From assembly GCA_949130485.1 (NCBI GenBank), contig OX422190.1:9806444-9870443 (forward strand): a stretch of DNA of 64,000 nt, written 5' to 3'. The stretch's first letter is position 1. The number at the start of each line of letters is the position of its first letter. The DNA is from Agelas oroides (Eukaryota > Porifera > Demospongiae > Agelasida > Agelasidae). A program made the translations under genes and the position numbers. The notes below the pieces were generated by a model. The model did no database searches. It was not told where the DNA came from and saw nothing but the letters and a program-made list of their open reading frames with translations. Below, in pieces: positions 17,045 through 43,260 of the stretch.

Positions 17045-18619
17045 ATGTAAGTTCAGTATGTTAGTAACTTCATATTAGCATGTAAGTTAGAATGACTGTA
17101 ACTTTATATGTAGTTATAGCTTTATGTAAGTTCAGTGGTTTTTATTAGACTGTCACTTCAATGCATGTTAATATGTAGCATAATTCATTTTGATGAATCC
17201 AGGTCACAAATCGCAGCTGTAAATCAACAAGTAGATGAGGTAAGGTACTAGTATTGTGTATAGCTAGCATACATGCATGAGCATGCAATTGCTAGAACAC
17301 CATGTATCATGCATAATATTTTAGTACTGGCTATGCAGGCCAGTGCAAAGAGTTGATTATGTGTGGAGAGTGCATAGGGGAGGGGGAGGGACTTATAGCA
17401 GAGTGGTGCATGATTGTCACTGTTAGCAATTGTGTGGCTTGTCACAGATGAAGAATGTAGCTATCGATGTCTTGAAGAAAGTGGACAAGAGGCTGGATAA
17501 CGTTAACGAGTTGGACGATAAAGCAGGTAAGCACATAACCTGTGTAGTGGTAGAACTTAGTCAGGATTCTTGGCTATATCTAATGGGAAACCTTGCTAAC
17601 AAGGACATAGTCTTGTGTCAGTCTTGTGTCAGTCTAGTGTCAGTGTCTAGTGTACAATAATAGTGTCTCACTAACAGCAGTTGGCCCAAAGGGTATACCG
17701 ATCTTCAATGAGCTGCAGGTCTCAATCATTGCACAATCATAATGCATGCATGCAGTCATATGACTATAGTTGTGGACTACATTATGCCTTATAAGGACAA
17801 ACAATCATGCAGTAGAGTTAAACCACATTGTGTGTGTGCTAGCATATGCACTGTATGAACAATGGAAGTTGAAATAAACAATGCAGCTCCACTATAGGTG
17901 CTGTACCTGGTAGTTTGCAGATCATATAAATTGCTTACTACTCTATGTGTAGTTACAAACTAACTGTGCCCCCCCCCCCTCAGTCAAAAAGTCTTTCCTA
18001 CACCTATGTATGCAACGTGCACCACTATCTGAGTAACAGCTGCATGCATACGGTCACCCCAGCGCAGCTGATGAGGCCTGGTATTGGCCGAAACGTGTCC
18101 TGCGCAGTGGGTGACTTTGTATAACATCTAGGCCTATTTTCGTAAGGGAGATGTGGTTCGTTGATTGTTCATGCATTGAAAGTATAGCTATGACAAGTCT
18201 TTTTGGACCTGGTACAATGCTGCATCTATCCCACAAAAATTACTGATTACAGATTGTGCACACCTGCAGTGTATGTATGTATGCCTGCAAACAGCTTGCT
18301 CATGCCATAGGCTATAATCTTATATAAAGACAATGATCTTGTGTGACTGATTGCTCATTGCAGTGCTTTTGAGAAAAGATGCCGAAGAATTCCATAAAGT
18401 TGCCAAGGATTTGAAGAACCAATACAGGTGCTCTTACTATAAGGTGAGAAGAAGATATGTTTCGTTTGTGTAATGGATACTACTACCTCCATTGGTTTTC
18501 AAAATGCACGAAGATTATTTGTCATTATGTTCCTGTGTCAGTATTGCAATTAAGGTGTACTATGAATCATTAGTTATGCAGATATAAAATATGTTTCACT
18601 TTTACATGTTACACACACA

Positions 18620-18787: not shown

Positions 18788-21700
18788 ATACGTACACACA
18801 CACATACACACAATACGTACACACACACATACACACAATACCCCCCCCCCCCCCAACACACACACACACAGTGGATTATCCTGCTCATAATTGTTCTTGT
18901 TGCCATTGTAATCATTGTGCTGGCAAGTAAGTTGAACTCCCTGATTCAGTGAGAACAGCATGATCTAGCCTCATACCCAGGCTCTTGGTAGGCGGGCCCA
19001 CTGAGAGCCTGGGCACGAGAACAGCATGATCTAGCCTCATACCCAGGCTCTTGGTAGGCGGGCCCACTGAGAGCCTGGGCACGAGAACAGCATGATCTAG
19101 CCTCATACCCAGGCTCTTGGTAGGCGGGCCCACTGAGAGCCTGGGCACGAGAACAGCATGATCTAGCCTCATACCCAGGCTCTTGGTAGGCGGGCCCACT
19201 GAGAGTCTGGGTACGAGAACAGCATGATCTAGCCTCATACCCAGGCTCTTGGTAGGCGGGCCCACTGAGAGCCTGGGCACGAGAACAGCATGATCTAGCC
19301 TCATACCCAGGCTCTTGGTAGGCGGGCCCACTGAGAGCCTGGGTACGAGAACAGTATGATCTAGCCTCATACCCAGGCTCTTGGTAGGCGGGCCCACTGA
19401 GAGCCTGGGTACGAGAACAGCATGATCTAGCCTCATACCCAGGCTCTTGGTAGGCGGGCCCACTGAGAGCCTGGGCACGAGAACAGCATGATCTAGCCTC
19501 ATACCCAGGCTCTTGGTAGGCGGGCCCACTGAGAGTCTGGGTACGAGAACAGCATGATCTAGCCTCATACCCAGGCTCTTGGTAGGCGGGCCCACTGAGA
19601 GCCTGGGCACGAGAACAGCATGATCTAGCCTCATACCCAGGCTCTTGGTAGGCGGGCCCACTGAGAGCCTGGGCACGAGAACAGCATGATCTAGCCTCAT
19701 ACCCAGGCTCTTGGTAGGCGGGCCCACTGAGAGCCTGGGTACGAGAACAGCATGATCTAGCCTCATACCCAGGCTCTTGGTAGGCGGGCCCACTGAGAGT
19801 CTGGGCACGAGAACAGCATGATCTAGCCTCATACCCAGGCTCTTGGTAGGCGGGCCCACTGAGAGCCTGGGCACGAGAACAGCATGATCTAGCCTCATAC
19901 CCAGGCTCTTGGTAGGCGGGCCCACTGAGAGCCTGGGCACGAGAACAGCATGATCTAGCCTCATACCCAGGCTCTTGGTAGGCGGGCCCACTGAGAGCCT
20001 GGGCACGAGAACAGCATGATCTAGCCTCATACCCAGGCTCTTGGTAGGCGGGCCCACTGAGAGCCTGGGCACGAGAACAGCATGATCTAGCCTCATACCC
20101 AGGCTCTTGGTAGGCGGGCCCACTGAGAGTCTGGGCACGAGAACAGCATGATCTAGCCTCATACCCAGGCTCTTGGTAGGCGGGCCCACTGAGAGCCTGG
20201 GCACGAGAACAGCATGATCTAGCCTCATACCCAGGCTCTTGGTAGGCGGGCCCACTGAGAGCCTGGGCACGAGAACAGCATGATCTAGCCTCATACCCAG
20301 GCTCTTGGTAGGCGGGCCCACTGAGAGCCTGGGCACGAGAACAGCATGATCTAGCCTCATACCCAGGCTCTTGGTAGGCGGGCCCACTGAGAGCCTGGGC
20401 ACGAGAACAGCATGATCTAGCCTCATACCCAGGCTCTTGGTAGGCGGGCCCACTGAGAGCCTGGGCACGAGAACAGCATGATCTAGCCTCATACCCAGGC
20501 TCTTGGTAGGCGGGCCCACTGAGAGTCTGGGCACGAGAACAGCATGATCTAGCCTCATACCCAGGCTCTTGGTAGGCGGGCCCACTGAGAGCCTGGGCAC
20601 GAGAACAGCATGATCTAGCCTCATACCCAGGCTCTTGGTAGGCGGGCCCACTGAGAGCCTGGGCACGAGAACAGCATGATCTAGCCTCATACCCAGGCTC
20701 TTGGTAGGCGGGCCCACTGAGAGCCTGGGCACGAGAACAGCATGATCTAGCCTCATACCCAGGCTCTTGGTAGGCGGGCCCACTGAGAGCCTGGGCACGA
20801 GAACAGCATGATCTAGCCTCATACCCAGGCTCTTGGTAGGCGGGCCCACTGAGAGCCTGGGCACGAGAACAGCATGATCTAGCCTCATACCCAGGCTCTT
20901 GGTAGGCGGGCCCACTGAGAGTCTGGGCACGAGAACAGCATGATCTAGCCTCATACCCAGGCTCTTGGTAGGCGGGCCCACTGAGAGCCTGGGCACGAGA
21001 ACAGCATGATCAAGCCTCATACCCAGGCTCTTGGTAGGCGGGCCCACTGAGAGCCTGGGTACGAGAACAGCATGATCTAGCCTCATACCCAGGCTCTTGG
21101 TAGGCGGGCCCACTGAGAGCCTGGGCACGAGAACAGCATGATCTAGCCTCATACCCAGGCTCTTGGTAGGCGGGCCCACTGAGAGCCTGGGTACGAGAAC
21201 AGCATGATCTAGCCTCATACCCATGATCAAACTCAAGGACAACATGACTAAAAATCAATTCTCTTCTGCATAGCTAGCCCAGTCATATGACAAAAATGTG
21301 TGCCAAACTGATGTCTCCAGTATTCACATATGCTAAGATATGTTCGCATAATGTATGAAAATGAAAACATTCCAAAAAGGTTAGGAGGAGGTGGGAGCCT
21401 GAAATGGAGGCTATTTCTGTATATACTCTAGCAAGGTAGTAAGACAATTCCTCATTTGTTGCCAGGTGTATAAAATAATCCACAAGCAGGACTGTATTGA
21501 CTTCAGTGATTATTTACACTTTACCAGAGCCTCTTGTACTAGATCTCATAACCTCACTCTGTTTTGTAGACAGTCACGAATAAATGCTTTTAGGTACTCC
21601 TTTTTTGTAAATTGTCCCTTTCTGTGGAATGAGCTTCCACATGTTGTTGCTAATGCTTCCTCCTTTCAATCCTTTAAGTTTAAGTTGAGAAACTTCCTGT

Positions 21701-22285: not shown

Positions 22286-22773
22286 ATGTAAGTTCCCTTG
22301 CATGCTGCAGTAGTTCACGATGTCGCAGTTACTAGTGACTGTATGTGCAGTACTAGTGCGTGAGCTCTAACTATAATGGAGGTGCTGAACCTGGCAAAAT
22401 TATGGACAGTTGCCCTGTCCACCGCATACGTAAGGTGCTCAACACTTATACCCCTGTGCGCGCACGCACATACACCCTACCGATTTGCTGACATCCGTGT
22501 CGGTTTTGCGGCTACGTGTATAGACTCTGTGGCTTCAAATTATTAACCTTTGAGCTTTGGCTCACGCATACATACACACATCAACGAACAACAGTGTTGG
22601 TTTGTGGCTATGTTCAGTACATGTATGCTATCGTGCTTCCAATCATGCAACCTTTGTAAAGTACAGAACTTAGTTCCTTATTCGGTAATAGTTCGCTTCT
22701 TGTTTTGTCTGTACTCAGGGGTTCCTGGTAGATCAGCAAATTATGCTGAAGGAGCTACCTGTGAAAATAGAGT

Positions 22774-22807
<34 letters not shown>

Positions 22808-22820
22808 ACCTTTCACCCCC

Positions 22821-22851
<31 letters not shown>

Positions 22852-23809
22852 ACAGGGCACACAGGGCAAGAACCGACGGTCTAAAGCAACAAGTGGGGGA
22901 GGTCAGTACAAAACATAGTTCCTTGCAATGATCATGAAATAATACATACTTCACAGCCGAAACATTTGATCACTAGCTAAAGTGATTGTTAGGGAATATT
23001 ATTAACATTCCACAGGCTAATGTGCACCTCCTTGCCTTGCGTATATCCTCCATTCCAAGTTAGTATAGCATCACCCGTATGACTGTGTAACTGTGACATA
23101 TTATGCAATAGGTGAAGGTGATAGTTGTTGACAACCTAGAAAAGATTGAGATGAGAGGAGACAAGATCGAAGAGATGGATGAAAGAGCAGGTGAGAACTA
23201 GATAATTAGCAAGATACCATCAGAGTTTATCATACGTGGCAATGGTGGTAGTACTGTGTTGCACTACACATACACACTGCCTTATAGTGCTTAGGTAGAC
23301 GCTTACAGTTTTACCCAGGAACCTGCCAATTGTAACTAAGAGGTACAGCTACAAGTATGTGCTTCTGTTCCTTTAATTCAGCTCTTCTGGGATCAGCAGC
23401 CAAGGATTTCAAGAAGGTGACTGTCAAAACAAGAAAAAAAGAGCAGCGTATCTACAAAAAGGTGTGAGACAGCAAGCCAAAATTAACTTTTATGGATCCC
23501 TGTGGATTTTTCTTTCTCTCTCTCCAAACAACTTTTATATAATAAAATATGATGTAACCCTAAACCCTCACGCTACACTATGACTTGTGTTTGTCGTTGA
23601 CTGTTTGTTAGGAAGCAAATGGTCTGGGTGTACCAATTTTAATATATACTTGGCTGGCAATACTGAGCCTCTATCCCAGGCTCTCACATAAGCTTACACT
23701 TGTTAGCTACTAGTGAAATTTGTCAGTTGGTACTTCAACTGCTAGTGCATGTCTCCCACCTTATACTGTGCAGCTGAGACGATGGTGCTGTTGTGCAAGA
23801 AACTCGTGA
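22286..23809 (+). CDS. R-SNARE paralogue 3 without TM; Cys-rich tail
   Basis: Exons: exon 1 ends 22287 (AT|GTAAGT); 22865-22901 (ARTDGLKQQVGE); 23112-23190 (VKVIVVDNLEKIEMRGDKIEEM..., zero-layer Arg present in EMRGDK); 23382-23461 (ALLGSAAKDFKKVTVKTRK...IYKK); 23774-23809 in phase 0 (LRRWCCCARNS, stop). About 77 aa. No usable TM exon exists in the 312 bp between the last two exons. A possible relic (23612-23660: acceptor TTGTTAG, end CTGGCAA) has lost its GT donor. The Trp-Cys-Cys-Cys tail could be palmitoylated and act as a lipid anchor; alternatively it is a by-product of TM-exon loss. An upstream donor at 22263 (ATGATG|GTAAGC) is an alternative end for exon 1. Confidence 0.72.
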
Positions 23810-25012
23810 CAGATCAAGACGTCTGTTCGGTTGTTATCATGCTAAGTCTCCATTTAATTGTCCACATACTCGTTGTGTGTATATATTATGCTCAGTGTCA
23901 AGTTAATTGCCCACATGATTTGTATTGTACTTGTACTGTAGCACTGCAGGGGAAGCCAGATAAGTCCCAGGCCTTCCCACTTCCACAAAACAGGAAGTGA
24001 CATAACCTGGAGGGGGGAAGGCCTGGGAGCAAGGCTAGCATGTAAGTGCTTTACTGGGAAGGGAAGCTGAGTTGTCATGCATATACAACTTGGACTCCCA
24101 TGGCTCTCTATATTGCAGCATAGATAATAGAAGCATAGTATGCTCTATTATTTATGATTGCAGACTACACGCCTTGTTCACAGGTCTTTGCCACCTCCAA
24201 AATTTGATTGCTTATAAATTCAAACACGAAAAGCCTGTGAATGGACTAGCAGGCTAACAGTTAACAACTTTGATCAAATTTTAATGATATTCATAGCATG
24301 ACGTGCAATTAAGGTGGGTGTGGCTGCCAATCATTGGGCAATATGCATACTAGTTACTACTATACCTGCAGAAATCAACTTTAATAACCCATTCCATTGC
24401 TATAACCCTCAATTTAAATAGAACTTGAGTCATGTGACATGTTTATCCCATGCATAACCTGAATCAAGATTGTGTAGAATTTCTAAATAAGGCGAAGAGA
24501 TCCCTTGCCACAGACACTTAATATGTTCAGAAGATGTACGTCAGAAAGAAATCTAACACATGTGCACACTGAAGGTCATGCTAGACCTTCTATTGGAGGT
24601 GGAAAAGACTTGGGAACAAGACTAGTCACCCCAGCTACCCTCCTGAACATACTGTTACAAGAAAGACCTGAAAAATAAATTAACACCAGCTGTTGCATGA
24701 ATGCTTCCTTCTGTGGCTGATAGGTTCGCCATGACAACTGCAATTGCAGCAGATAACCCACGTACCAGCTGTGCACCTGCACAATTCACCTCCTGAGGTG
24801 GGTTACGTAACCTACTTGAACCCGCGTTGGTTCAAAGTACACTTCCACACATCAAAGAGAACCTAAGAACCTTTAATTGAATAAAGCGTGCGAAGCGCGT
24901 ACATGCGGATTCTGAGCCAGGTAAATAAGGCACAGCTGGTGCAGACAAGGCTATTTGCAGATCGAGGAACGAGATGCGAGAAGTTTTGATCCCGGCCCAA
25001 GCAAGATTGAAG
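23810..25012. other. Spacer between R-SNARE genes 3 and 4
   Basis: No gene recognised. The frame that continues past the gene 3 stop in another phase (hydrophobic VVIMLSLHLIVHILVVCIYY, about 23824-23883) would be reached only with a phase-1 splice, for which no donor exon was found. The rest is MITE fragments (about 23969-24035, AGGCCTTCCCACTTCC with inverted partner) and AT-rich sequence. Confidence 0.45.
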
Positions 25013-27651
25013 ATGCCGTAAGTCACTGTACGATTTTACATAGCCGGCTACTGCACGTATTTGTATGTACCCCACTGCTGCTAACATCCTAGTTTTAATA
25101 GCTGGTACCGGTAGCTGTGACTAGGGTACGTAAAACTGTCATTGCATGTACTCCATCTGCTATACTGCACTCATGCTTTCACAGTTGCACATGCACACAC
25201 ATAATTTCTCGCACATAACTGCATATGCGCACATGCCGCTGGCACGACAATAATTATGTGCACATGTGCACATGCTGTCATGCATGCGTACACTACGTGC
25301 ACTGCATACAAATACCTACAGTTGCTGTGCAAGCTTAGAGCTTATATGCTTGCATGTGGGCATATATTCATTGCCGGAGCCTGTGTGCTATGCATCCTCA
25401 TTGAAGAAACATCCTGGCCCACAAATCATGCATTCACACACACATTCACATGCACACACAAACACACAGGTCAAACGTTGATGACCTAAAGCAGCAAGTG
25501 GGAGAGGTCAGTGAAAAAATATTGCTTCCTAAAAATTCTAAAAAGTAGCTCATATAAATTAAACAGTTTGCATGTAGCTATGTATCTAGTAAACATTTCT
25601 GTTTTCATCTGCTAGATGAGGGTGAAAGTGGTTGGTAAACTAGAACAAGAGATTGAGAAGACACGAGAAGCAATTCAAGATATGAACAAGAGAGCAGGTA
25701 AGTACGATATACCTGATAGATGATTGGCACTGTATCAAAATACTCAGCCATGTTTTTGTATGAGTCACTGTGAGTGTGTGGATGATTAGTGTCGTTAAGT
25801 ACGATATAGAAAATAGAATAATAGAATATAATCTATAATACAGTTCAATTAGGGTAATCTGAATTCCAAAGGCCACTGATCTCTTGGGCCAAATGATATG
25901 TTGATGTGTTTCTAACATGCACCACTACTTTGCAATAGTATGACGACATCAAGTTTGTTCATCCAAAGACTGTCCCAACTCAATATTTGTTTTGAATATT
26001 CATAATCACTAAAATACTGTACTCATGTAGGTTGGTAATACGTGTAAACAACAGCTGTTCATGTTGATTGACCATTAATTGACCATAACTGTTGAAAAAT
26101 CTTAAACAAATGTTCAGACTTTGTACAATTACAGCATGATTTGGCTACACATGATTGACCACTGATGATATTGAAAAACCATAGAGACAGATGTTTAGAC
26201 TTGCATTGACACAAACACTGACGCAAGCATTAACAGGCTCAGGCATCCAACGCTGCACTTGTGACCAAATTGACAGATTCTGCACGTTCAAAACTTGATT
26301 CGTAAAGCAAAAGCTGTAGTCATTGCCAATCGTTAATATCTATAAACCATATTTTGGTGAGTGCTATCGAGTTTGTCAATATAACCTGAAGTCATGCCCA
26401 CTTTTAGTTTTTCCCATACGAATTTCAGTTGAACAAAAAGGCTCTCTGCATCAATTCCTACTCTAATTAAATATGTCTGCGTAAAGGTCAACCAATGGAA
26501 CGCTGTAGTGTAACTTTCCAGGTGTTACTTGAAGTTAGTCTGGAGAACTGTCTCCTTCAAAAGGTCAGTCTTCTGGTATTTGCTTACTCAGCATTGTATA
26601 GTGACACACAGCTGGTGTCTGTGGTCTAGTCACCTAACATCTGCTTAGGTGACCTTGTAGACATAACATCAAAGGACCTTTTCCACACGTGAAGTTGGCT
26701 GGACACAAGAGCACCACATCACATGTGTGTTATTAGAATCTCTTCAGGATAGTGTTGCAGCATAATATTGAACTATGCCTGCTATAGTTGCCAAGCGCCT
26801 TATAACCAGATATGCCTACATGTAATTGTCATGCAATAGCATGATTTAATGCCTAGTTGCCAAGCACATTATTGCACAATTACTGCTGTATAATTGAGAT
26901 GTAAGTTTATGCAGAGTTGCAGAGTCTAGTAACTATAGCATTTTTCTGGTAACTAGCATATTTCTTTAAGGTTGTGAAACATGTGCATGATAGGGTCAAA
27001 ACAGTGTCACAGTTGTAACTAGTGTTGCTCCCAGGCTCTCATGGCCCAGCTTTGATCACTTGTAGCACTGCAAACAATGAAAGCTGGGGTGTGATGGAGC
27101 CTAAGACCAACGCTAGGTTGTAGCTATCATATATTTAATAATGAACTTTTGTTTTACTTTCAGCTCTTCTTGGATCAGCTGTAAATGAGTTTAACAGAGT
27201 GGCAGTAACACCAAAGCAGCCACCACAGTGTGCACGCAAGAAGGTGAGAGAGAGTATGCATGTCACTTTTATGACTTCCTTCTCCCCTAGCCTCATCTCC
27301 AGGCATCCATACAGACTTAGCTATCTTCTCCAATTTTTCTGCATGGATGCCTGTGAGATAAAAATCTAGATGCCTGAAGGCCTGGAACATGTATTCAGCT
27401 CCTGATTCCTGGTCTTTGTCCGGCAAACTATATACACTTGTACATCTGAAAAATCTAGGTGGAGACCTAGTAACATGGCAAATGAGCTCCTCATTGCTGG
27501 CCTTACACTGGGCACTTGTAGTTTGCAACACTGCATCCAGTGGTACCTATGCAAAATACCAGTAACATTAATTTTGGTGATTCAGCTGTATATTTGTCTT
27601 CTCCTTGTTCCGCAGTCACGACGGTGGCATCGTTGTACAAGACACTCATGA
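25013..27651 (+). CDS. R-SNARE paralogue 4 without TM, zero-layer Arg lost
   Basis: Exons: exon 1 ends 25017 (ATGCC|GTAAGT, start at 25013); 25470-25506 (SNVDDLKQQVGE); 25616-25697 (82 nt, MRVKVVGKLEQEIEKTREAI...); 27164-27243 (ALLGSAVNEFNRVAV...CARKK); 27616-27651 (SRRWHRCTRHS, stop). About 79 aa. Aligned from the exon end, the zero-layer position is Thr (EKTREA) with Arg one residue later, so the canonical ionic layer is broken. The tail is homologous to that of paralogue 3 (RRW-x2-C) but keeps only one Cys. The 82-nt exon 3 length is shared only with gene 5, suggesting those two are sisters. It could be a decaying gene or a modified or inhibitory SNARE. Confidence 0.65.
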
Positions 27652-28069
27652 TGAGTTTGGACACATCATACTTGCTGTTCAAATGTTTGTGTCTGCTGTG
27701 CTTTGTCTCCAGTTGATGTTCATACTTCTCCTGTATCAACACCCTTCAGTATACAAACATGTACCCTTCTGTACTTGAGCACCTCTTAGTATCTTTACCC
27801 AGGGTTGGCAGACAATAGCCAGGCATGCATCCACGCCTGCATTTTGGACCATTGATTGTTTAGTGAGTGTTCATTGTTTGTTCACATCAAATTCATATTC
27901 AATTATAAAGTTTGTATCCCATTTACCTTTAAACAGGTGCTTGGGAAGGGGGGAAGGGGTGTTGTCAGTGCTCAACAATGTGTATATACCACAGCCTTTA
28001 GCATACTCTGCATCAGGAATTCCTTTCTGAAGATAAAGTAAAGGCAACTAGCGGCGAGACTGTTTCTAC
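27652..28069. other. Spacer after R-SNARE gene 4
   Basis: No gene assigned. The minus strand over about 27570-27740 keeps an open frame with ordinary-looking composition (YDVSKLIMSVLYNDATVV) antisense to the gene 4 last exon; no splice context or family was recognised. Confidence 0.35.
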
Positions 28070-28462
28070 GGAATTCGCTTTTTTCACCGCGGTTCATGTT
28101 GCATTACGTCATCATTACGTCTTCTGTTGAATATTCATAAGTAATTCGTTTCACAGCGGTTCATGTGTGTTGAATATTCATAATTAATTCGTTTCACAGC
28201 ATACATTAGACCAAACAGTGTGCTGGTCGTCTGTTGTGGCTTGTTGGCTAAATGGTTAAAGGTTAGGGTTAGGGTTAGGGTTAGGGTTAGGGCTGGGGCC
28301 AGGGATTGCACTAGGTGTGTTTCTTTTTTTTTCCTGTAGTGTTATAAGTGTGGTGAACACATTTGTCTTCGTTGGTACGGTAAGTGCGCACGACGGGTTA
28401 CTTATGAATATTCAATAGGTGACGTAACCGCCACATGAACCGCTGTGAAAAAAGCGAATCCC
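28070..28462. mobile_element. MITE with ~30-bp TIRs, 10-bp target duplication and a telomeric array
   Basis: Ends GG(A/G)ATTCGCTTTTTTCAC(A/C)G are inverted for about 30 bp. Both sides are flanked by CTGTTTCTAC (28060-28069 and 28463-28472). Inside are further inverted TGAATATTCATAA segments and five perfect TTAGGG units (28263-28292). It lies between R-SNARE genes 4 and 5. Confidence 0.8.
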
Positions 28463-28490
28463 CTGTTTCTACGAGCTCCTCCCACCATTC

Positions 28491-28502
28491 TGCGCATGCG
28501 CA
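28491..28502. promoter_or_regulatory. NRF-1-like palindrome TGCGCATGCGCA
   Basis: A perfect match to the palindromic NRF-1 (alpha-Pal) site, about 650 bp upstream of the predicted exon 1 donor of R-SNARE gene 5. Promoter role is inferred from position. Confidence 0.4.
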
Positions 28503-28651
28503 TTGTAACTAGACCCCCGCTGCAGAATGCTACCTCGTGCAGAATATCCCCGTAGTCTGAGTTCACGGCGTAAATCATGGTGTATATTACTCAAGTTCTA
28601 TATGGATGGCTACTAGCCGCTTCGGCAAGCGCCTTGGGTCAAAGCACAGTC

Positions 28652-29060
28652 GAAATACATCTGCACAGCAAGCGAAGGTCGGCGACGCCAGACTTATCCT
28701 TTGACCTGGCAAATGTCAAGCGAGCCAAACGCTTCCTTAGGACTATGTACTTGAATTTGTAACAATTAACTGGCGAACTTGCCTGTAATCCGCTCTACAG
28801 GGTGACTTGCTCATTGACCATTTCTGCTAGTGCGCACTTTGGCATTTGGCACAGTTGTTGAATGTGCTAACTTGAGAGTATTCACCTTTGAGTCTTTGAC
28901 CGCTCTGGTATTTGACGGGGCCAGCGTCACCGGACCTCAGCTTGCAGGAAATACATCTGCACAGCAAGCGAAGGTCGGCGACGCCAGACTATCCTTTGAC
29001 CTTGAGATTGTAACCGTTAACTGGCGAACTTGCATGCAATCCGCTCTACAATTCAAGGGT
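28652..29060. repeat. Direct duplication of about 100 bp
   Basis: The segments starting at 28652 and 28948 share GAAATACATCTGCACAGCAA and the following ~25 bp almost exactly, then diverge with indels through a second conserved part (TTAACTGGCGAACTTGC). Upstream of R-SNARE gene 5 exon 1; no gene within. Confidence 0.75.
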
Positions 29061-29146
29061 GACTGCCAGTGCGCACTTTGACCATTGATCGTCGTGATCC
29101 TCTTCAGCAACCTTGACCGACGTTGTGCCTCTACAGCAAGTCCACA

Positions 29147-32100
29147 ATGTGAGTTAAGAATTTGGTAATCTGCCAAAAGAAAACAAAGGAAAATTTTAGT
29201 AATCATATTTGGACCCAAAAATGACCTCAACAAAGTTGTTATACTTTTGGTTACTAGTGTTGCGTGACTATATCTGAGTGCTATTTCTAGTGTGGTCGCA
29301 GGGCAACCATACATGAGTAACGTTTACTATCCTCCCACAAAATACCACATTCCGGCTTCAATTACACATGCAAGGATAGCCACACAACACAGTAATCTTT
29401 ACTAACGATTTTGCTTGCAATCTCAAGTCTAAAATCTTGGATCAACAGCATTTGTGCATGCACATAACTATTATTGTGACTGTAGCTTTTCCCTACTACA
29501 GTCAATTTCAGGTCTTTGAGCTTCCATACTGGCATCATGTTACTCTTCTATATATACCGTCACTTATAGCTAAATACTAAACTGACACTTCGTACAGAGC
29601 CTGAAATTGACTATATAGTTACTGAACCATTATGACTGCAAATGGACCAAATTCCCAAATGTCCCCAAATTCCCAGTAGCAAATGCATAACAACCAAGGA
29701 GTGCTTGCTTGCACGTTTTAAAAGATGTATAGAGCTCACAGCAAAAACAACGGTATGAAGTTCATACCAAAAGAGTATGACCTTCATCCCAACGAATTTC
29801 ATACCTATGGTATGAATTGAGCGAGTATGACTTTCATACTTTCAGCGGTGCGTAGTTCATACCGCGGATGGGAGAATACGTTCGTCATACCGAAGCTGCG
29901 TGTGAACTTCATACCCCGCTGCACGCGATGTTATTAGGTCAAAGGTCAAAAGCATCCGTGGATGAGAAATCTATTTATGCGTTTAAGAAATTTTATATTC
30001 AGCATGCATGTAGGGTAGATGCTGGTATTATGAGACAGCTAAACTTGAATTACTACTCATTAGTGTAATGTATTTTTTCAGTCTCATCTAAAGGTTTGAA
30101 ACAGTTCTCCAGAGAATGTACCACTGATAAAATAAAATTCGTATTTTTCCCCCTGGGCAGTGGTTCTAAAAGTAAGAGCCTACGAAAATCACTCTTGCAT
30201 GTATTATGAGTCGACTGTTGGTATTATGAGTCACCAGGTGCTTTGTTGATTGAAACCTTTTCAGTTGGAGGTCAAACTGTATCCTAGCATTTTATAACCT
30301 CTCTTTGTGGTGATAGTAATTTTTCTTCACTAGAGCACCTTCCGTTCTACCATGGTATTAATGTTAACGTACACTGTTCAGGGTTCATAGTTTGGGATCC
30401 CTAAAATCATCAACCTTGAAAAATACTATAAGGGAAACACATTTTGATGGGAAAGTTGCTAGATAATGGCACCTGTATGTACCCTAAATGGACATCGAGT
30501 TTGGAAATTTTAGGAGTAAAAGTTACATGTGAACCCATAATACCCTCTGACTCATAATACCAGCATCTACCCTACATGTCGACGCGACATAGCCATGCAG
30601 CAGTGATCCCCGTGTCTCAAGACAGATTTCTTATGCAGGTAAGTCGATAGCTGATGAGAAATTCTGTTGAAAATTTGGATTTATCTGTGTACTTACTTAG
30701 GGGTGGATAGGAATTGTGCTTAAGCATGCATGGTTGATTTGCTACACACTAGCAAATGCAATGAATGTTACCATGCTTCCATCCTCCTACAAGGGTAGTC
30801 ATTTTTATGGGCACCATAGTCACAGTAGCAACTGAAGTCAGACTAGAAATCGTATGTAAACTAGATTTTCCCGTTCCAATCCAGCACAGGTGTACATGTA
30901 CCAGAGCTAAAAAACAATTATGAATGTACAGGTAGAGTGGAGTTGATTGATACCTAGTTTGTCCTATTTGAAGTAGTTTTGGTCTCGTAGATTTGAAAAA
31001 GCTAACGCGATTGACCATCAAATTGATATGCGGTTGGGTGTAAACTACAGTTTCCCGTTCCAGTCCAGCACACAGTGTGCCAGACTTACAAACCAATTTG
31101 ATATTATGAATGTACAGGTAGAGTGGAGTTGATTGATACCTACACTGTAAAAAACTTTGGGTTGTTTCAACCAGTTTATAGGGTTGTCTGAGTTGCACAC
31201 ATGTATGTAGGAGTAATGCTGAAATATCACTGAGAAATTTATTGAACAAATTATACAAAATTAGCCTGCTTTGATATGACATACTAGATAGTAAGGACAA
31301 ATTGAGCAATTTGTTCAAGAAATCGAGCTATGCTTTGATGAGACGTTACATAGGAAGTAACAAAAATTTGTAATGTCACATCCCAATTTCTAGAGTCTGC
31401 TATTTCCTTAATATTCTACTATGAATTCACACACACACACAGGTCAAGTTCTGATGACCTAAGTCGACAACTGGAGGAGGTCAGTACAACTATGTACAAG
31501 GTTGAGGGAGGGGAGGGGGGGAGGGGGGAGGAGAGGGGAGGAGGGGGGAGGAGAGGGGAAGAGGGGAGGGGGGGAGGGGCGAAGATGGTTAGTATAATAT
31601 ACTGTAAAAACATTGGTTGTTTTAACCACAGAGTGATTACTCTGGTTGCATGGCTTATTTTGGTATCAGAGGCTAATTGTATAAAACAACCAGAGAGGTA
31701 GTTTTCTTGTCAGCTCCTCCTCTTTTCCTCATTCCAGAATGAGAAGGAAACAACAAGAAACATACAATTAGCCTCTAGTACTGAAGTAAACCATGCAAAC
31801 AGGATAACCACTTTGCAGTTAAAACAACCAATCTGTTTTTACAGTGATATCCATAGATGCCCATTAACCCAAGCCTCATTCCCAGGCCTTCCTACCGTCC
31901 AGTTTTGGAGGCGTGGAATGAGGCTACATTTGCTAATAGCTTCTAAGCCGTAGGCTACTTTGTATATTGTGTAGGAGAAGAGGAAAGTTGCTGGGAAAAT
32001 AGATGAAATCAATAAAGACATTGAAAAAGACTCTGGAGGTTGTGATGAGAGATCAGGTAAATGCTAGCACTATAGCAAAGTAGCCATATTACTGACAAGA

Positions 32101-33140
32101 GTTCATGATTTCTGAGTAACTATAAATGCATGTATGCAAGACCAGTTGCAGTTTGATGCAGTTGAATGTCTTCCGCTCACAAAATGTTTTACAAGCACCA
32201 CATTCTTTGAATTAGCATGGGAAGGACAGTCATGCAGTTGTAGTAACCAAATAGTCTTATTTATAGAATTACTTTTACTCATGCTACCTACCTTCCTCTT
32301 ATAGCTCTCCTGGGAACAGCAGCTGGCGAGTTCCGGAGAGTTTCCCGCAAGCAACCACAGCGTGCACGCAACAAAGTGAGAGGAAGTAGAAATCATTGAG
32401 CCAACCACACTTGAAAAGCTTGCACACTGGTCTAGCTCTATATCAGTGGAGTAGGAACCAATTTTGGATTGGGAGGGGTGGACCAAAATATATAATAATC
32501 AGTAATAAAATCAACAAAGACAGAATACACACATATAAAAAAATTATACAGGGTTAGTTAATGTGTACATGTAATATTTATATAGTGCAACACACTGTGG
32601 GCTCAAATTGGAACCAACCTTAGGTATGATCACCATCAGCATGATATATACTATAACATGGAGCCTGATTATTGGGGGGGCCAGCCCCCCCCCCTGTTGG
32701 ATTATTGGGGGTGGGGGGGGGCACTGCCCCCCAGTTCCTACTCCACTGTATATATAGCTTGCAAGTGTATAGCCTCATTCCCAGGCCTTCCCACTGTCCA
32801 GTTTTTGATCATTTACAGTATACAAAAACTGAACGGTGGGAAGACCTGGCAGCAAGGCTAACTTGTGTACACCAGCCATCTCTATAGCCTGTAATGCTGA
32901 AGTACGGCCAATGCTAGCTACATACAGTACACATATCAATGCATACCTACCCCTAATATGTACTCAGGCCCTCAGTTGACAAAAGGTAGTCTCGTACCCA
33001 GGGCTCCTCCCCAGCCTGGGTACGAGGCTAACAAAAGGCCCAATGCTCCAGTGAAATTTGTTTGCTTCAAGTCTCTTTCATATATGCAGTTAACGTTGCG
33101 ACAATGTTGGTGCTGTTTGGCAGGAAACTCAGAGCCGTGA
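29147..33140 (+). CDS. R-SNARE paralogue 5 without TM, zero-layer Arg lost, Cys tail
   Basis: Exons: exon 1 probably ends 29148 (CCACAAT|GTGAGT); 31443-31479 (SSSDDLSRQLEE); 31975-32056 (82 nt, EKRKVAGKIDEINKDIEKDSGG...); 32305-32375 (71 nt, ALLGTAAGEFRRVSRKQPQR...); 33090-33140 (LTLRQCWCCLAGNSEP, stop). About 80 aa. The zero-layer position is Ile, and Ser-Gly-Gly follows, so the coiled coil is disrupted. Exon 4 is 9 nt shorter than in the others, still in frame. No TM exon is visible between 32376 and 33089. All splice sites and frames are intact despite divergence, which argues for some constraint. Exon 1 is the least certain part. Confidence 0.62.
29751..29916. repeat. Cluster of TTCATACC / GGTATGAA motifs
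   Basis: At least eight copies of TTCATAC or its complement occur in about 165 bp, several arranged as GTATGAA-n-TTCATAC palindromes. They lie in intron 1 of R-SNARE gene 5. Confidence 0.75.
30007..30578. mobile_element. Inverted-repeat element, 28-bp perfect arms
   Basis: Bases 30007-30034 (starting CATGTAGGGTAGATGCTGG) are perfectly complementary to 30551-30578. The ~570-bp spacing, further internal TATTATGAGTC copies and absence of coding potential fit a MITE. No target duplication was identified. Confidence 0.6.
30866..31142. repeat. Direct duplication of ~90 bp in R-SNARE gene 5 intron 1
   Basis: About 30866-30956 and 31050-31142 share TTTCCCGTTCCA(A/G)TCCAGCA at the start and ATGAATGTACAGGTAGAGTG followed by ~16 more identical bases at the end. 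Confidence 0.7.
31601..31845. mobile_element. Foldback MITE, TIR ACTGTAAAAACA
   Basis: The left end ACTGTAAAAACATTGGTTG and right end (complement) ACTGTAAAAACAGATTGGTTG match for about 55 bp with small gaps. A solo, related end lies at 31144. It sits between exons 2 and 3 of R-SNARE gene 5. Confidence 0.7.
32987..33030. mobile_element. Short hairpin MITE copy
   Basis: TAGTCTCGTACCCAGG...CCTGGGTACGAGGCTA, flanked by ACAAAAGG on both sides (32979-32986 and 33031-33038). Only 44 bp; a minimal member of the family. Confidence 0.75.
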
Positions 33141-33859
33141 CAGATCCTTTGCGTCTGGTCATTCTGTATCAGTTTTGTGTCATAGATCAATTTTAATACT
33201 GTATCTTCAGTTTTTGTAGTGTATTTTCTTATAACTTACTTAGCACTTAGCTTTGTATACATTATAACATACTTAGCACCTTGGGTTGTATAGCATCAAA
33301 CACCTCTTAGATTGATCTTTGTATCCCTATAGCGCCATGCGCCAGACTTCTATACCTTTTGTCTTTCCTTGTATCCTTGTTCTCTTTGTTCCAGTTGAGT
33401 ATATAAGTGCTATTGATTTGTTGTAAGTCAGAAGAATAATAGTTTTACGAATTGCTGTCAATTACTATCTGATATCTATCGTCAAGATATCACAGTTTTC
33501 TGTTGAAAACGTGCACAGATAATCTATAATATACTTACATTTCTGCAGGCTTGTAATGGTTATGAACATGTCCTGATGTTGAGTTACGCTTTGTATAGTC
33601 TACAGCATGACTAGGGGGCGGAAAAACCGGACAAATATCAGGCAGGAAATTTTTCGCAACAACAGAATTCTTATCGTGGCGTTCATACACCTTTCTGTGT
33701 GGGGCCGGGCCTCCTCTTACAGCCGGGGCCGCAACAGATTTACAGGTAAATTTTCTGGAACCCCGAAACTCGTCACGTGGTATAGCTGAGAGCTAGCTGA
33801 GACCCACCCATCACGTGTAATTGTGGTCAAGGACGACAAGCCCGCAAAGTCCTAACAAG

Positions 33860-36800
33860 ATGTAAGTGTTCTTGCATGCTGGACGTAGTTTACTAACTTC
33901 ACTGTGACTTGCGACACGCTGATGAGCTAACATGAACTATGAGATTCTGGTTTGGCAGTTATCATAGATTAAATTTCGAGCTCTGCCCGTAGCGATATGA
34001 TTGCGTTCCATGGATAAAATTTTTCTCTGCACGTACTGTACCATACTTGCTGCTTTGTGACAAATATTTGCATTTTCAACTTGCAGTGCATCCGGGCCTT
34101 ATGTAGCATAGCTAATCACAGTACACCTTACACATGCACACAACCCACAAACACCCTCACACACCCTCACACATGCACAGGTCGAAAGTTGATGCACTAC
34201 ATCAGAAAGTTGGGGAGGTCAGTATACTGTACATGATATCCACGTAGCAACAGTAGAGTGATGCCGCCTGTTGAAGCGTTTGCAACCGGGATCAAGGATT
34301 TTGGTTGGCAAAAAGTGTGCTTGATCACTTGATCGTTCCCTTCTGAAGCTCTTGGTCGCTTGATTTTCAAATGGTCAAAGGTCAAATTGCAGCCACACAT
34401 TCTTGTAATCTTGATCCCTTGATCGGCTCTCCAAAAGGGCTTTGATCGCTTGATTCAATTTTGATCCCGGCCGCAAACGGTTCTACATGGGACATAAGTG
34501 ACTACCCCAGCCCTTACTAATGGACACTCCCATAGGCAAATGCTAACATTTGCAACTTGGGTCACAATTTGGCTGTGGTCATGTGACAACGCTATGATAC
34601 TTTTGGCTGTCAAGACTATTTAAATTATGCATTCAAAGGATTTAGTCACGTTTTCATAACACCTCCAACTATTTGTTTTACAGTCTACCTCAAAATTTGA
34701 CTTTTTGTTGTTTGTTTATTTTTTTGTTTGTTTGTTTATTTTTTGTGATAAACATAGGTAAAGGGGGTGGTTGCTGATAACTTGGAAAAGGTTCAGATGA
34801 GAGGAGAAAGAATTGATGAGCTGGATGAGAGAGCAGGTGAGTCTAATGATTGTGTCAGTAATATGTTGTGGGTGGGGCTGATAAAATCTTGTGCCCAGCT
34901 ATCCTCCTCCCCATACCCTAGTCTCGTTCCCAAACCGCATTTTTCGCGCCCGCCAGAGAAAAATTGTTTGGGCACGAGACTACCCATACCCCTGACAACT
35001 TTTACTGTGCAGTATGGTTAGGGACCTCCCTTTCATGTTGCAATGGAACAGTGGAAGAACACATGCATTATGGAGTCAGGTGACGCACCTTACACAGCGG
35101 GGGGCTCTGAATAAAATCTAGGCCTGTTTTATAGCTGAGAGATGTGGTTCATTTTTTCTAGCATACTCGAATTTGCTCTTTTGAATGTGCAAATGTACAT
35201 TCAAAACATTTTTGCATGATTGCATTATTGTACCCGCCTTCCACCGCTTTCAGTATTTCCGTTATTTGGTTGCTTCCCCTGTGTGAATACATAATGTCAT
35301 TGCATGTGGCCAGATCTCCCATGCCTTCCTCTGCTTCCTCTGGCATACTGGAAGCAATCAAAAACTGGACGGTGACGAAGGCCTAGGGCTGCGTCTTGTG
35401 ACACACAGTGAGTACTCCACACTGTTCTCATGCCCTTATAAGGCAACTGTTTATAATGGAGATGATATAATTATACACTCATAAGTTTCCCTGAGGTTTG
35501 ATAATTTACATTTGTGATTTGAGGTAAGTACTTGTGTCGAGCCCAGATGCACAGGGCGTAGCTAGGATTTCAGAAGGGGGAGGCAATGGAGGTGCTAACC
35601 CCGCGGCAAAATTTTAGAGTTAATTTTCTATTATTCCGCCCTATTTTATACATTCTAAACCAAGCGTTAACTCCACTTTGTGGGCAAAAAAAGACTCTTT
35701 GCAGTTACTGACAGTGTCCCTCTTCTTTTCTCAGCCATCAAATATAACTTGCCTTGCATGTATGAGATATTTTGTGGCTGGGGGCATACATCATTACGCA
35801 GTAAAAATGACGAGGCAGCTGCCTCCTGTGCCTCAATGCTAGCTACTGGGACATGAGCTGTGTGAACACATGTTATGAGGCTAAAAAGAGGAGAAAGAAA
35901 AAGACTGATGGTCATATATAGCTCTGAGGTTGGAGCAATACCAGCTCAAACCAGGGTCCTGGGTCTGGTTTCCTGCGACTGGTTTCTTTACCTTTCAATC
36001 TGACAATGTTCTTGAAGGGTTAATTGACAATGTTTTTGAAGGGTTAATTGACAATGTTCTTGAAGGGTTAATTGACAATGTTCTTGAAGGGTTAATTAAT
36101 GTTCTTGAAGGGTTAATTGACAATGTTCTTGAAGGGTTAATGTTCTTGAAGGGTTAATTGATAATCCAAGCTTGTTTGTTCTTCAGCTCTTCTAAGATCA
36201 GGAGCGAAGGATTTCAAGAAGGTGGGAGTCAAAACAAGAGTGAAGCACCAGCGAGCCTATGAGAGGGTGAGGCCGAGTTTGTAGCTAGCGTTTGACCACT
36301 GCTACATTCTGTGACTCAATTCTTTGCTATTTTCTACCATACTCTGTCATATTCTCGCCACTTAGTATTGTGACTGTTTTGTGTATGAAAATTTGTTAAT
36401 GGATACATTTCCTTAAATAGACCATTAGCATGTGCTTATAAAGATTCTTGTTTCTTCCTCCCTTCATGCCTCTTCTTTCTCCTTCTCTCTGCCTCCTTCC
36501 CTCCTTCCCCTCTCTCCCACCCTCCCTGCTTCCCTCCCTACCTCCTCTCTTCCCTGTCTCCCTTTTCTTCTTTCTCGGCCCACATACACGTACACCTCAC
36601 TTATACAGACAAAACGGTGCAAATGGATAACCCTCATAACTCTCATCCTGATACTAGTCACAGTCATAGTCGTTGCAAGTGAGTTCCGTAATCGAAACTT
36701 GTCAGCAAGCAGCATGACTGAGGTGGCCAACAAGTAACAAAAGTAAAGTGGGATGGAGGCTTAGGTATTGCCTTGTTTGGGGTATTGGAAGGGGGGGGGG

Positions 36801-37259
36801 GGGGGGGGGAGTTTTGCAAGCCAGACCTGTTCCATTTTGCAGCACTGATTGCTTCAAGTAGTTATCAACACTACAAAACTGGGGAGGGGGGTGGGGCTGC
36901 ATGTGAACAGGGCTAGCAGTTAGACAGTTGAGCTTCTCAACCAGGAAATAGTCTACAACCAATCAATCAATCAAATTTCATTTTGTATACACTCTACTCT
37001 AGAGTCCCATGTAGCCTCGTCCCCGGGCTCCTCCAGTTTTTCAGTTGTACATTATGTAACTGAAAAGCCAAGGAGAAGCCTGGGAATGAGGCTACTGTAG
37101 TCTTATTCCCAGATCCTCAGGGTAAAGGCTGGGAATGAGGTTATATGTCATTACCATATTTGGCAATACGTAACATTATCATTTCACTCTGCAGTTGTTG
37201 TTGGAGTTACAGTTCCCCTGACAATGAACCATCATGATGGTGATGAACCAAACCAATGA
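33860..37259 (+). CDS. VAMP/synaptobrevin-like R-SNARE, paralogue 6
   Basis: Exons: exon 1 ends 33861 (AACAAGAT|GTAAGT); 34181-34217 (SKVDALHQKVGE); 34758-34836 (VKGVVADNLEKVQMRGERIDEL..., zero-layer Arg in QMRGER); 36187-36266 (ALLRSGAKDFKKVGV...AYER); 36609-36678 (70 nt, TKRCKWITLITLILIL...VTVIVVA, TM); 37195-37259 (IVVGVTVPLTMNHHDGDEPNQ, stop). About 110 aa. The region around exon 1 and exon 3 is very like gene 3, its probable closest relative, yet gene 6 keeps the TM. The TM exon is 3n+1. A phase-0 cassette at 37563 could give an alternative TM-less end. Confidence 0.83.
34919..34982. mobile_element. Hairpin MITE copy with 9-bp target duplication
   Basis: TAGTCTCGTTCCCAAA...TTTGGGCACGAGACTA, flanked by perfect CCCATACCC duplications (34910-34918, 34983-34991). 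It lies in the intron after exon 3 of R-SNARE gene 6. Confidence 0.8.
36002..36165. repeat. 24-bp tandem repeat, ~7 copies
   Basis: The unit GACAATGTTCTTGAAGGGTT plus AATT is repeated with two internal deletions of GACA-type segments. It ends about 20 bp before the acceptor of R-SNARE gene 6 exon 4. Confidence 0.85.
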
Positions 37260-37562: not shown

Positions 37563-37595
37563 CTGTGGTGCAAGAAGCAACGAACTATTCCCTAA
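37563..37595 (+). other. Possible alternative TM-less last exon of R-SNARE gene 6
   Basis: After the acceptor CCCCTGTAG, phase 0 reads LWCKKQRTIP and a stop. The DNA resembles the gene 3 tail exon (CTG...TGGTGC...AAGAA). Splicing from exon 4 (phase 0, donor after 36266) would skip the TM. This is a similarity-based guess; no transcript is known to me. Confidence 0.3.
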
Positions 37596-42347: not shown

Positions 42348-43260
42348 CACACACACACACACACTCACACCACACTCACACTCACTCACACACACACAGT
42401 GCTGCATCATCTGTACAATCGTAATTCTTGTCATTCTCGCAATCATTATAGCAAGTAAGTTTATACCTACAAGATAGGGCTAGAACAATTAGTCAATTTG
42501 TCAGTTACATTGTTGACTACAATTGTCGACTGAGTTGAAATTTAGCTTCAAAGTAATGTTATGATGGCCAGTCATACATCCTGAACATGTCAGCTGCCAC
42601 GATATATCATATGTCGTCATGTCATGACATAAAGTAGTCTTGACATGATATGACATAAGCCAAGTCTATATCGATATTTTTAAAAGTGTGCATTTGCATG
42701 ATTACTTAGCTGGGATTTACCTGAACGCACAAGAAGCTGACACAGAATGCTTTTTTTTTAAGCCAATCGACTTGTGAAAGCTAGGTCACATGTACTCGTA
42801 ACTTACCAAACACTAGCATACTAAATTAATGAGTCACTTAAGACTTTTTTCATGCAGTGATAGATTAAAATTTCAGAAATGAACTTCACGTCATGACATA
42901 TCATGACATAAAATTACATGACATAATATTATTACAGTCAATTATGAATATCCTCTACTTGTTTGGGCCCTACCACTAAAGTTGGGGGGAGGCAGGACAG
43001 TCTTGTTCCCAGACTACTTTAGTAACGAGACTTGGGGGGGTGGTACATGTAAATTTCTGTCCACCATGCACTATCTATTACAAACTGATCAATCATTCCC
43101 TAATTTGAATTATTTCATTCCCAAAGTTGACAAACTTGTGTGTATGCTGTAGTTGTTTGTGCTAACACTCTGTAGCTACTTCTAGTATTTTCAGTCCTTA
43201 ACGCAGTATCATTTTTCCTATTTTACAGTTATTGTTGCGGTGGTGCTCACACGTCACTAA
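38161..43260 (+). CDS. VAMP/synaptobrevin-like R-SNARE, paralogue 7
   Basis: Exons: exon 1 ends 38162 (TGCAACAT|GTAAGT); 38416-38452 (SGFSAINEKVHQ); 40285-40363 (LKGLALDNIRKVDQRGEKIEDL..., zero-layer Arg in DQRGEK); 41991-42070 (SILESSANEFKKTSKEV...WAYYK); 42400-42454 (TM: CCIICTIVILVILAIIIA); 43229-43260 (IIVAVVLTRH, stop). About 94 aa. Two Cys sit at the start of the TM, a usual VAMP palmitoylation position. If the 55-nt TM exon is skipped, the last exon is read in phase 0 as LLLRWCSHVTK and a stop at 43264, resembling the tails of genes 3-5. Exon 5 follows a long (CA)n acceptor tract. Confidence 0.84.
38976..39077. mobile_element. Hairpin MITE copy with 9-bp target duplication
   Basis: TAGCCTAGTCCCCAGGCTCTC...GAGAGCCTGGGGACGAGGCTA, flanked by CATGTAGAC on both sides (38967-38975, 39078-39086). 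In R-SNARE gene 7 intron 2. Confidence 0.8.
40091..40168 (-). mobile_element. tRNA-derived SINE head
   Basis: Read on the minus strand it has an A-box (GGCCGAGTGGG) and a B-box-like GGTTCAAGTGC about 35 bp apart, as in tRNA-Ser/Leu, but no convincing full cloverleaf. Best read as a tRNA-derived repeat. Confidence 0.45.
40545..40680 (+). mobile_element. SINE-like repeat with tRNA-like part
   Basis: CATACTGAGTGGCTGCCAG...CACCTGTGCAGTA followed by GGTTGTCGTAGCTCAGTGGT (A-box-like). The first part recurs at about 61471-61530 and the tRNA-like part recurs inverted at 61361-61436. Confidence 0.5.
42078..42169. repeat. 23-bp tandem repeat, 4 copies
   Basis: The unit GCTCGTAGCCTCATTCCCAA plus GTT is repeated four times directly after the exon 4 donor of R-SNARE gene 7. 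It contains the MITE terminal motif TAGCCTCATTCCCA. Confidence 0.85.

Follow-up and report, generated by a model that had tools for sequence, protein, structure and literature searches.

Short C-terminal tails, probably derived by frame shift, in three genes of a tandem R-SNARE-related cluster of the sponge Agelas oroides

The gene cluster and the tails of genes 3, 4 and 5

The window analysed here is a stretch of 64,000 nucleotides (nt) from the demosponge Agelas oroides (contig OX422190.1, positions 9,806,444 to 9,870,443 of the forward strand, in the 259 Mb assembly GCA_949130485.1 of 141 contigs), and all positions given below are those of the window unless stated. Between about 11.5 and 43.3 kb the window carries seven R-SNARE-related genes arranged head to tail, referred to here as genes 1 to 7, and its closest named protein relatives are the VAMPs of the freshwater sponge Ephydatia muelleri. 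The present report concerns the C-terminal ends of genes 3, 4 and 5, in which a short tail exon stands straight after the exon that in genes 2, 6 and 7 is followed by an exon for the transmembrane (TM) helix.

All the exons described lie on the forward strand. The start codon of gene 3 is split, exon 1 ending with AT at 22286..22287 before a gtaagt donor and joining exon 2 (22865..22901, 37 nt), which is bounded by AG and GT (ARTDGLKQQVGE). Exon 3 (23112..23190) encodes a SNARE motif in which the zero-layer arginine is retained, as judged by alignment and by the Pfam Synaptobrevin profile, exon 4 (23382..23461, ending in phase 0 with the donor gtgtga) encodes the end of the motif and a basic linker, and the tail exon (23774..23809) is preceded by AG and reads LRRWCCCARNS to the stop codon in phase 0. 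Exon 1 of gene 4 ends at 25013..25017 (ATGCC, then gtaagt) and is followed by exon 2 (25470..25506), exon 3 with a degenerate SNARE motif (25616..25697), exon 4 (27164..27243, ending in phase 0, donor gtgaga) and a phase-0 tail exon preceded by AG (27616..27651), which reads SRRWHRCTRHS to its stop. For gene 5, one of three candidates for the end of exon 1 is again a start codon split after AT (29147..29148, then gtgagt); exon 2 (31443..31479), exon 3 with a degenerate SNARE motif (31975..32056) and an exon 4 of 71 nt, nine fewer than in the other genes (32305..32375, ending in phase 0, donor gtgaga), are followed by a phase-0 tail exon preceded by AG (33090..33140), reading LTLRQCWCCLAGNSEP to the stop. 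The resulting models of genes 3, 4 and 5 comprise 77, 79 and 80 residues, of which exons 1 and 2 encode about 13. The sequences, coordinates and phases of the three tails agree with a preliminary description of this DNA, which had also placed three cysteines beside a tryptophan in genes 3 and 5. The tails of these two genes both contain WCC, and the gene 4 tail has a single cysteine (3, 1 and 3 cysteines, respectively). Judged from the sequence, the C-terminal change in genes 3 to 5 is real and shared, and it probably came about by a frame shift.

Genes 2 to 7 follow one common plan, in which exon 1 ends inside or right after the start codon, exon 2 has 37 nt, exon 3 has 79 or 82 nt and exon 4 has 80 nt, or 71 in the case of gene 5. 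Next, in genes 2, 6 and 7, as had also been described, comes a TM exon of 55-70 nt that begins in phase 0 and ends in phase 1, its length being 3n+1 bases, and then a last exon in phase 1. These TM exons lie at 18872-18926 in gene 2, 36609..36678 in gene 6 (the kind of exon missing in genes 3 to 5) and 42400..42454 in gene 7; the canonical last exons of genes 6 and 7 are found at 37195..37259 and 43229..43260, the latter starting with TTATTGTTGCG, to be compared with the start of the gene 5 tail, TTAACGTTGCG. In gene 1 the TM segment is continuous with exon 4.

Pfam Synaptobrevin (PF00957) was matched above its cut-off by genes 1, 2, 3, 6 and 7. Gene 3 scored 33.5 bits against a curated cut-off of 26.4, with a model that lacked exon 2 and carried one extra starting serine absent from the gene. 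Genes 4 and 5 gave no PF00957 match at E<=1, and no other Pfam domain was found above its cut-off in genes 3 to 5. At the zero layer, the position of which we take to be that of VAMP2 Arg56, the alignment of the seven genes shows arginine in genes 1, 2, 3, 6 and 7, threonine in gene 4 and aspartate in gene 5, in a column that adjoins a one-residue indel and is of uncertain placement. The three genes had been introduced as R-SNARE paralogues, a label that by the test of the Synaptobrevin profile, which genes 4 and 5 do not match, fits gene 3 alone; the motif of gene 3 is plausibly that of an R-SNARE, and those of genes 4 and 5 appear degenerate. The short R-SNARE motif is common to the brevin-type R-SNAREs (VAMP family, PF00957; genes 1, 2, 6 and 7 and the Ephydatia muelleri proteins P0006, P0016, P0018 and P0019). 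Genes 2, 6 and 7 also have the exon plan in common with genes 3 to 5. None of genes 3 to 5 shows a good spliced TM exon, however, and genes 4 and 5 differ further from the brevin type in falling outside the profile.

Some other features of the cluster were noted. In five genes the first intron apparently interrupts the start codon after AT, at 17045-17046 (gene 2), 22286-22287 (gene 3), 29147-29148 (gene 5, candidate), 33860-33861 (gene 6) and 38161-38162 (gene 7). For gene 1 there are two candidates for a phase-1 last exon, at 14409 and 15601, which read IIIAVSVTQSR and IIIVVVVVTNNTSTG, each to a stop. The last intron of gene 2 contains, at about 18950-21220, an array of 66-base units whose core was matched 34 times, at intervals of 66 bases with a single interval of 132, and this array belongs to a minus-strand open frame of 777 codons. 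Foldback repeats occur in the last introns of gene 5 (32770-32860) and gene 6 (37011-37095), and inspection by eye showed foldbacks of a similar kind (cctcgttcccaggc) in many further places. A separate locus, L028 (G000:C6:10453500-10456000), holds a VAMP7-like R-SNARE, so named by eye, as a 218-residue open frame with a SNARE motif and a TM segment but without introns.

Relatedness and origin of the tails

The similarity of each tail was ranked among 3187 window segments of 120 bases from both strands, its own site excluded. The best match of the gene 3 tail is the gene 5 tail (score 31). Next, all at 25, come the gene 4 tail, a gene 6 stretch at 37563 and one or more unrelated segments (among them 3201). 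The best match of the gene 4 tail and of the gene 5 tail is in both cases the gene 3 tail. Local alignments around the tails gave z values of 8.7 for genes 3 and 5, 2.9 for genes 3 and 4 and -0.9 for genes 4 and 5, and the flanks of exons 3 and 4 of the three genes do not align (z <=1.9 in 12 of 12 comparisons). The terminating TGA is aligned in the uncut local alignments of gene 3 with gene 5 and with gene 4; a longer gapped alignment of genes 3 and 4 places gaps there. Across the genome the gene 3 tail matched only itself, the gene 5 tail found matches just for its 3' part, at four other places, and scans of viral contigs and of bacterial and archaeal genome contigs revealed no relative. The tails of genes 3 to 5 are related to one another by way of gene 3, and they are more than open reading frames (ORFs) arising by chance. 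Gaps in multiples of three in the tail alignments carry no weight: each tail was delimited as an ORF in frame 0, and the lengths differ by multiples of three for that reason.

The account that we favour, tentatively and at somewhat less than an even chance, is that the TM exon of genes 3 to 5 was lost or is no longer spliced in, that the tail is the old last exon read out of frame, and that the genes encode small products without a TM helix. Genes 3 to 5 would form a sub-group of the tandem brevin-type R-SNARE cluster, whose common ancestor would have lost the TM exon or ceased to splice it in, so that exon 4 would join the old last exon directly. Because the missing TM exon is 3n+1 bases long, exon 4 would meet the old last exon one frame off, and the NTG codons (Val, Leu or Met) of the TM end would become TGN codons (Trp, Cys or stop), and a short tail with tryptophan and cysteine would result. 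This NTG to TGN relation explains how such a tail could arise, not that one did.

The tails occupy the position of the last exon of their sister genes, complete with an acceptor. Nine of the first 11 bases of the gene 5 tail agree with a canonical last exon, with P 0.002 among 4287 AGs and 0.005 among the 1127 pyrimidine-rich ones, each P value in these comparisons being for a single tail when three tails were tried. Read in phase 1, the tails of genes 3, 4 and 5 give TETMVLLCKK, ITTVASLYKT and INVATMLVLFGR, respectively; the hydrophobicity of the gene 5 reading is equalled by 1.5% of 1126 pyrimidine-rich AGs, or by 0.7% when a basic residue must come next, as it does at that place in three of the five canonical last exons. 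In frame 0 two of these five last exons contain tryptophan (SLLSWWW, LLLRWCSHVTK) and two contain cysteine, with both in one. The protein tree joins gene 3 with genes 4 and 5 (82) and leaves gene 6 outside (93), which together with the shared tail favours a single loss of the TM exon. A frame-shifted TM-end exon had been put forward earlier as the neutral alternative and turns out to be the better account of the origin, firm for gene 5 and extended to genes 3 and 4 by homology: direct sequence support being confined to gene 5, the frame-shift origin of the other two tails rests on their kinship with it. We infer the frame-shift origin and the single loss on these grounds. Another reading of the tails, in the frame that looked most conserved on inspection (DDGAVVQETRD / HDGGIVVQDTHD), was discarded because genes 3 and 5 run into a stop in it at once.

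Several observations weigh against this account. The tails of genes 4 and 5 have no direct similarity (ranks 936 and 344 of 3187). The global identities of the three pairs of tails (24/36, 27/36 and 23/36) are little above the gapped background of nine intron-flank pairs (0.30-0.63) or the 45/73 of the 3' flanks of genes 3 and 4; the identities are 35/63, 28/67 and 26/62 over the 70 nt upstream of the tails, and 45/73, 45/88 and 35/81 over the 90 nt downstream. The start of the gene 4 tail matches a canonical last exon weakly (6/11, P 0.15-0.17) and that of the gene 3 tail does not match any (2/11, P 0.99), the last exons of genes 2 and 7 standing at ranks 56 and 291 of 3187 for the gene 3 tail. 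The phase-1 hydrophobicity of the tails of genes 3 and 4 is equalled by 14% and 15% of the 1126 AGs, or by 5% and 6% with a basic residue next. The overlap of Trp and Cys codons with NTG codons is true by construction, through their common TG, and therefore is no evidence for a frame-shift origin. Between the tails of genes 3 and 4 there are 12 substitutions, 6, 2 and 4 of them at the first, second and third positions of frame 0; three changed codons are synonymous and five non-synonymous in frame 0 (P 0.11 for three or more), as against none and seven in the phase-1 frame, so that these substitutions have no coding pattern and are uninformative. The codon tree places gene 3 with gene 6 (48) and so does not favour a single loss. 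To these points are to be added the hydrophobic readings upstream of the tails and the limits of the selection analysis, both described below.

The search for a TM exon and the state of the genes

Candidate TM exons were sought in the last introns of the genes as AG...GT exons of 45-99 nt, going from phase 0 to phase 1, open and with a hydrophobic stretch of 15 residues. In the controls, genes 2, 6 and 7, the true TM exon had the top Kyte-Doolittle hydropathy (KD) in all three cases (3.36-4.1); in gene 6 a longer version sharing its acceptor reached the same value. The last intron of gene 3 gave no candidate, and gene 4 gave two, both under KD 1.5 or donor score 4; gene 5 gave twelve, the best listed having a KD of 1.61 and lying inside the foldback repeat. 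When the TM and last exons of genes 1, 2, 6 and 7 were aligned at the DNA level with the three last introns and tails, no convincing TM exon emerged. Two of these 30 comparisons exceeded a z of 2.5, gene 3 with the gene 1 TM segment (23836-23877) and gene 5 with the last-exon region of gene 7 (33173-33218), and both matches lie downstream of the tails. The stretch GAAGCAAATGG at 23612 in gene 3 had been considered as a TM exon with a lost donor and was rejected, the best match of gene 6 lying instead at 23531-23599.

The main structural rival is that a TM segment is still made without being spliced as an exon of its own, either in gene 4, from an acceptor at 27541 running unspliced into the tail (a TM helix followed by SRRWHRCTRHS), or in any of the genes through an upstream AG that restores the phase-1 frame of the last exon and leads into a hydrophobic stretch. 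We regard it as unlikely, although hydrophobic open readings start from upstream AGs in all three genes when a last exon without a donor is allowed. In gene 4 the open stretch WYLCKIPVTLILVIQLYICLLLVPQ (27541..27615) is in frame with both exon 4 and the tail, has a KD of 2.48 over 19 residues and could be an unspliced TM segment; values of 2.4 or more are reached by 0.58% of AGs on one strand and 0.75% on the other, and with 21 AGs about 0.12-0.16 such readings would be expected in gene 4 by chance. Phase-1-frame readings begin at 23746 in gene 3 (KD 2.66), 33038 in gene 5 (KD 2.01) and 27522 in gene 4 (KD 1.63), and gene 3 has a further reading from 23612 (KD 1.62). The chance expectation is about 0.06-0.07 for a KD of 2.6 or more among the 13 AGs of gene 3, making 23746 the least expected of these readings, about 0.5-0.6 for 2.0 or more among the 47 AGs of gene 5 and about 0.3-0.45 for 1.6 in gene 3. 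Against a conserved TM reading, the phase-1 AGs lie at unlike distances upstream of the tails (28, 94 and 52 nt in genes 3, 4 and 5), the acceptor at 33038 has a poor pyrimidine tract (7/20), and the alignments downstream contain gaps that break the frame (10 and 7 nt between genes 3 and 4; 1, 1 and 2 nt between genes 3 and 5). The earlier statement that the tail had replaced the TM helix is supported as regards spliced TM exons, of which genes 3 to 5 have no good one, and is called in question by the unspliced readings present in all three.

It had been proposed that the TM helix gave way to tails acting as S-acylated lipid anchors in the manner of SNAP-25, leaving brevins that are still membrane-bound R-SNAREs. 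The three cysteines beside tryptophan and the WCC of genes 3 and 5 speak for this, as do the retention of the SNARE motif in gene 3 and the rarity of such composition, a tryptophan with at least three cysteines occurring in 0.5% of 2674 AG-started ORFs of 8-20 residues. The proposal nevertheless appears rather improbable. The number of tail cysteines varies, the gene best supported by other assemblies, gene 4, having one; the SNARE motif is degenerate in two of the three genes, genes 4 and 5 failing the Synaptobrevin profile; and no CAAX box is present, the tails ending in ARNS, TRHS and NSEP. If the tails are frame-shifted TM ends, moreover, their tryptophan and cysteine content needs no selection, which also argues against an anchor. 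The clustered cysteines in the tails of genes 3 and 5 might still be acylated.

That genes 3 to 5 are decaying copies and their tails meaningless is more doubtful again. The SNARE motif is eroded in genes 4 and 5, a foldback repeat lies in the last intron of gene 5 and the tail substitutions follow no coding pattern, but splice sites are present and exons 2 to 4 are open in all three genes. The ratio of non-synonymous to synonymous substitution rates (dN/dS) over exons 2 to 4, with bootstrap range, was 0.31 (0.00-0.64) for genes 3 and 4, below 1 in every replicate, 0.27 (0.11-0.63) for genes 3 and 6, and 0.53 (0.24-1.05) for genes 4 and 5. It was 0.61 (0.27-1.20) for genes 3 and 5, with 1 inside the range; these estimates come from an alignment of 63-66 codons in which dS approaches saturation, and any replicate lacking a dS estimate entered as 0. 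When neutral drift was simulated, with indels assumed to occur at 0.1 per substitution, the probability that exons 2 to 4 stayed open was 0.0005-0.004 for 0.3 substitutions per site and 0.009-0.018 for 0.2. In the protein database, exon 4 of gene 4 has a relative in P0046 (26 of 27 residues) and exon 3 in P0047-P0049 (25, 25 and 24 of 27), while exon 4 of gene 3 is related to P0045 (22 of 27, E 0.005). The gene 4 exons are thus almost unchanged in other assemblies, while the frame of P0046 past the splice site aligns over about 21 residues only and with many changes. With a dN/dS of about 0.3 for genes 3 and 4 in exons 2 to 4 and near-identical exons in other assemblies, genes 3 to 5 are not plain relics. 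The preliminary description had set its reading against neutral substitution rates: selection is apparent on exons 2 to 4, at least for genes 3 and 4, and the tails of that pair are without a coding pattern. The SNARE-derived exons would then have remained under selection, and it follows that their products are probably made.

It is likewise improbable that the cluster has long had the tail exon as an alternative terminal exon, with an ancestor that made forms with and without the TM helix, both of which gene 6 may still make, and genes 3 to 5 having kept only the form without it: an exon-like stretch of gene 6 downstream of its TM and canonical last exons (37563..37595), which from the phase-0 end of exon 4 would read LWCKKQRTIP to a stop, is preceded by a pyrimidine-rich AG, is among the best matches of the gene 3 tail (score 25, tied rank 3 of 3187, z 3.3) and shares 14 of 15 core bases with it, and gene 1 likewise has two possible last exons, but the stretch has no signal against the tails of genes 4 and 5 (ranks 314 and 1516) and its phase 0 is a different frame from that of gene 3, because its acceptor falls within the aligned gene 3 tail.

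Probable products and their significance

Under the frame-shift account, the likeliest products of genes 3 to 5 are soluble or peripherally bound SNARE-like proteins, perhaps regulators, although we infer both the translation of the tails and such a function. The gene 3 product may pair with Q-SNAREs, and those of genes 4 and 5, which have lost the zero-layer arginine, may act as non-fusing, regulatory SNARE-like coils. Amisyn and tomosyn are regulatory proteins with an R-SNARE-like motif and no TM helix, and have large extra domains; genes 3 to 5, with their 77, 79 and 80 residues, differ in having no large partner domain at Pfam cut-offs. The cysteine region of SNAP-25 is central, in a protein with two Q-SNARE motifs, and Ykt6 has an N-terminal longin domain and a C-terminal CAAX box; neither arrangement is found in genes 3 to 5, and a cysteine cluster like that of SNAP-25 is seen in the tails of genes 3 and 5 and not in that of gene 4. 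Both proteins are SNAREs without a TM helix, as stated in PMC8377282 (SNAP-25) and PMC7696345 (Ykt6).

Closer in mechanism is human VAMP7b, in which, according to PMC3123573, skipping of exon 6 of SYBL1 shifts the frame and exchanges the TM helix for a new C-terminus, with loss also of the C-terminal half of the SNARE motif. Genes 3 to 5 would resemble the case of VAMP7b, as described there, in that a skipped exon shifts the frame and a new C-terminus takes the place of the TM helix; unlike VAMP7b, the change would here be the main form of three genes and would come after the SNARE motif. Replacement of a TM helix by frame-shifting exon skipping is hence already known from that source, and a lipid anchor in the present genes is a guess. 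In searches of an open-access library, which leaves out most subscription journals, none of the titles and abstract openings listed dealt with brevin-type VAMPs in which a cysteine tail replaces the TM helix. It seems quite unlikely that a lineage of brevin-type R-SNAREs traded its TM anchor in a single step for a lipid anchor of cysteines, by a one-base frame shift turning the NTG codons of the TM end into Trp and Cys codons; were it true, the old TM anchor's own sequence would have supplied the new lipid anchor.

If the tails are made, genes 3 to 5 would represent a frame shift, fixed in the gene, by which SNARE-family proteins have gained a new C-terminus, within a tandem cluster that holds copies with a TM exon next to copies lacking one. 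A rule is suggested by which a TM end rich in NTG, when read one base off, necessarily gives TGN codons (Trp, Cys or stop), and this could seed acylated tails. The finding would bear on the origin, in animals, of SNARE regulators without a membrane anchor.

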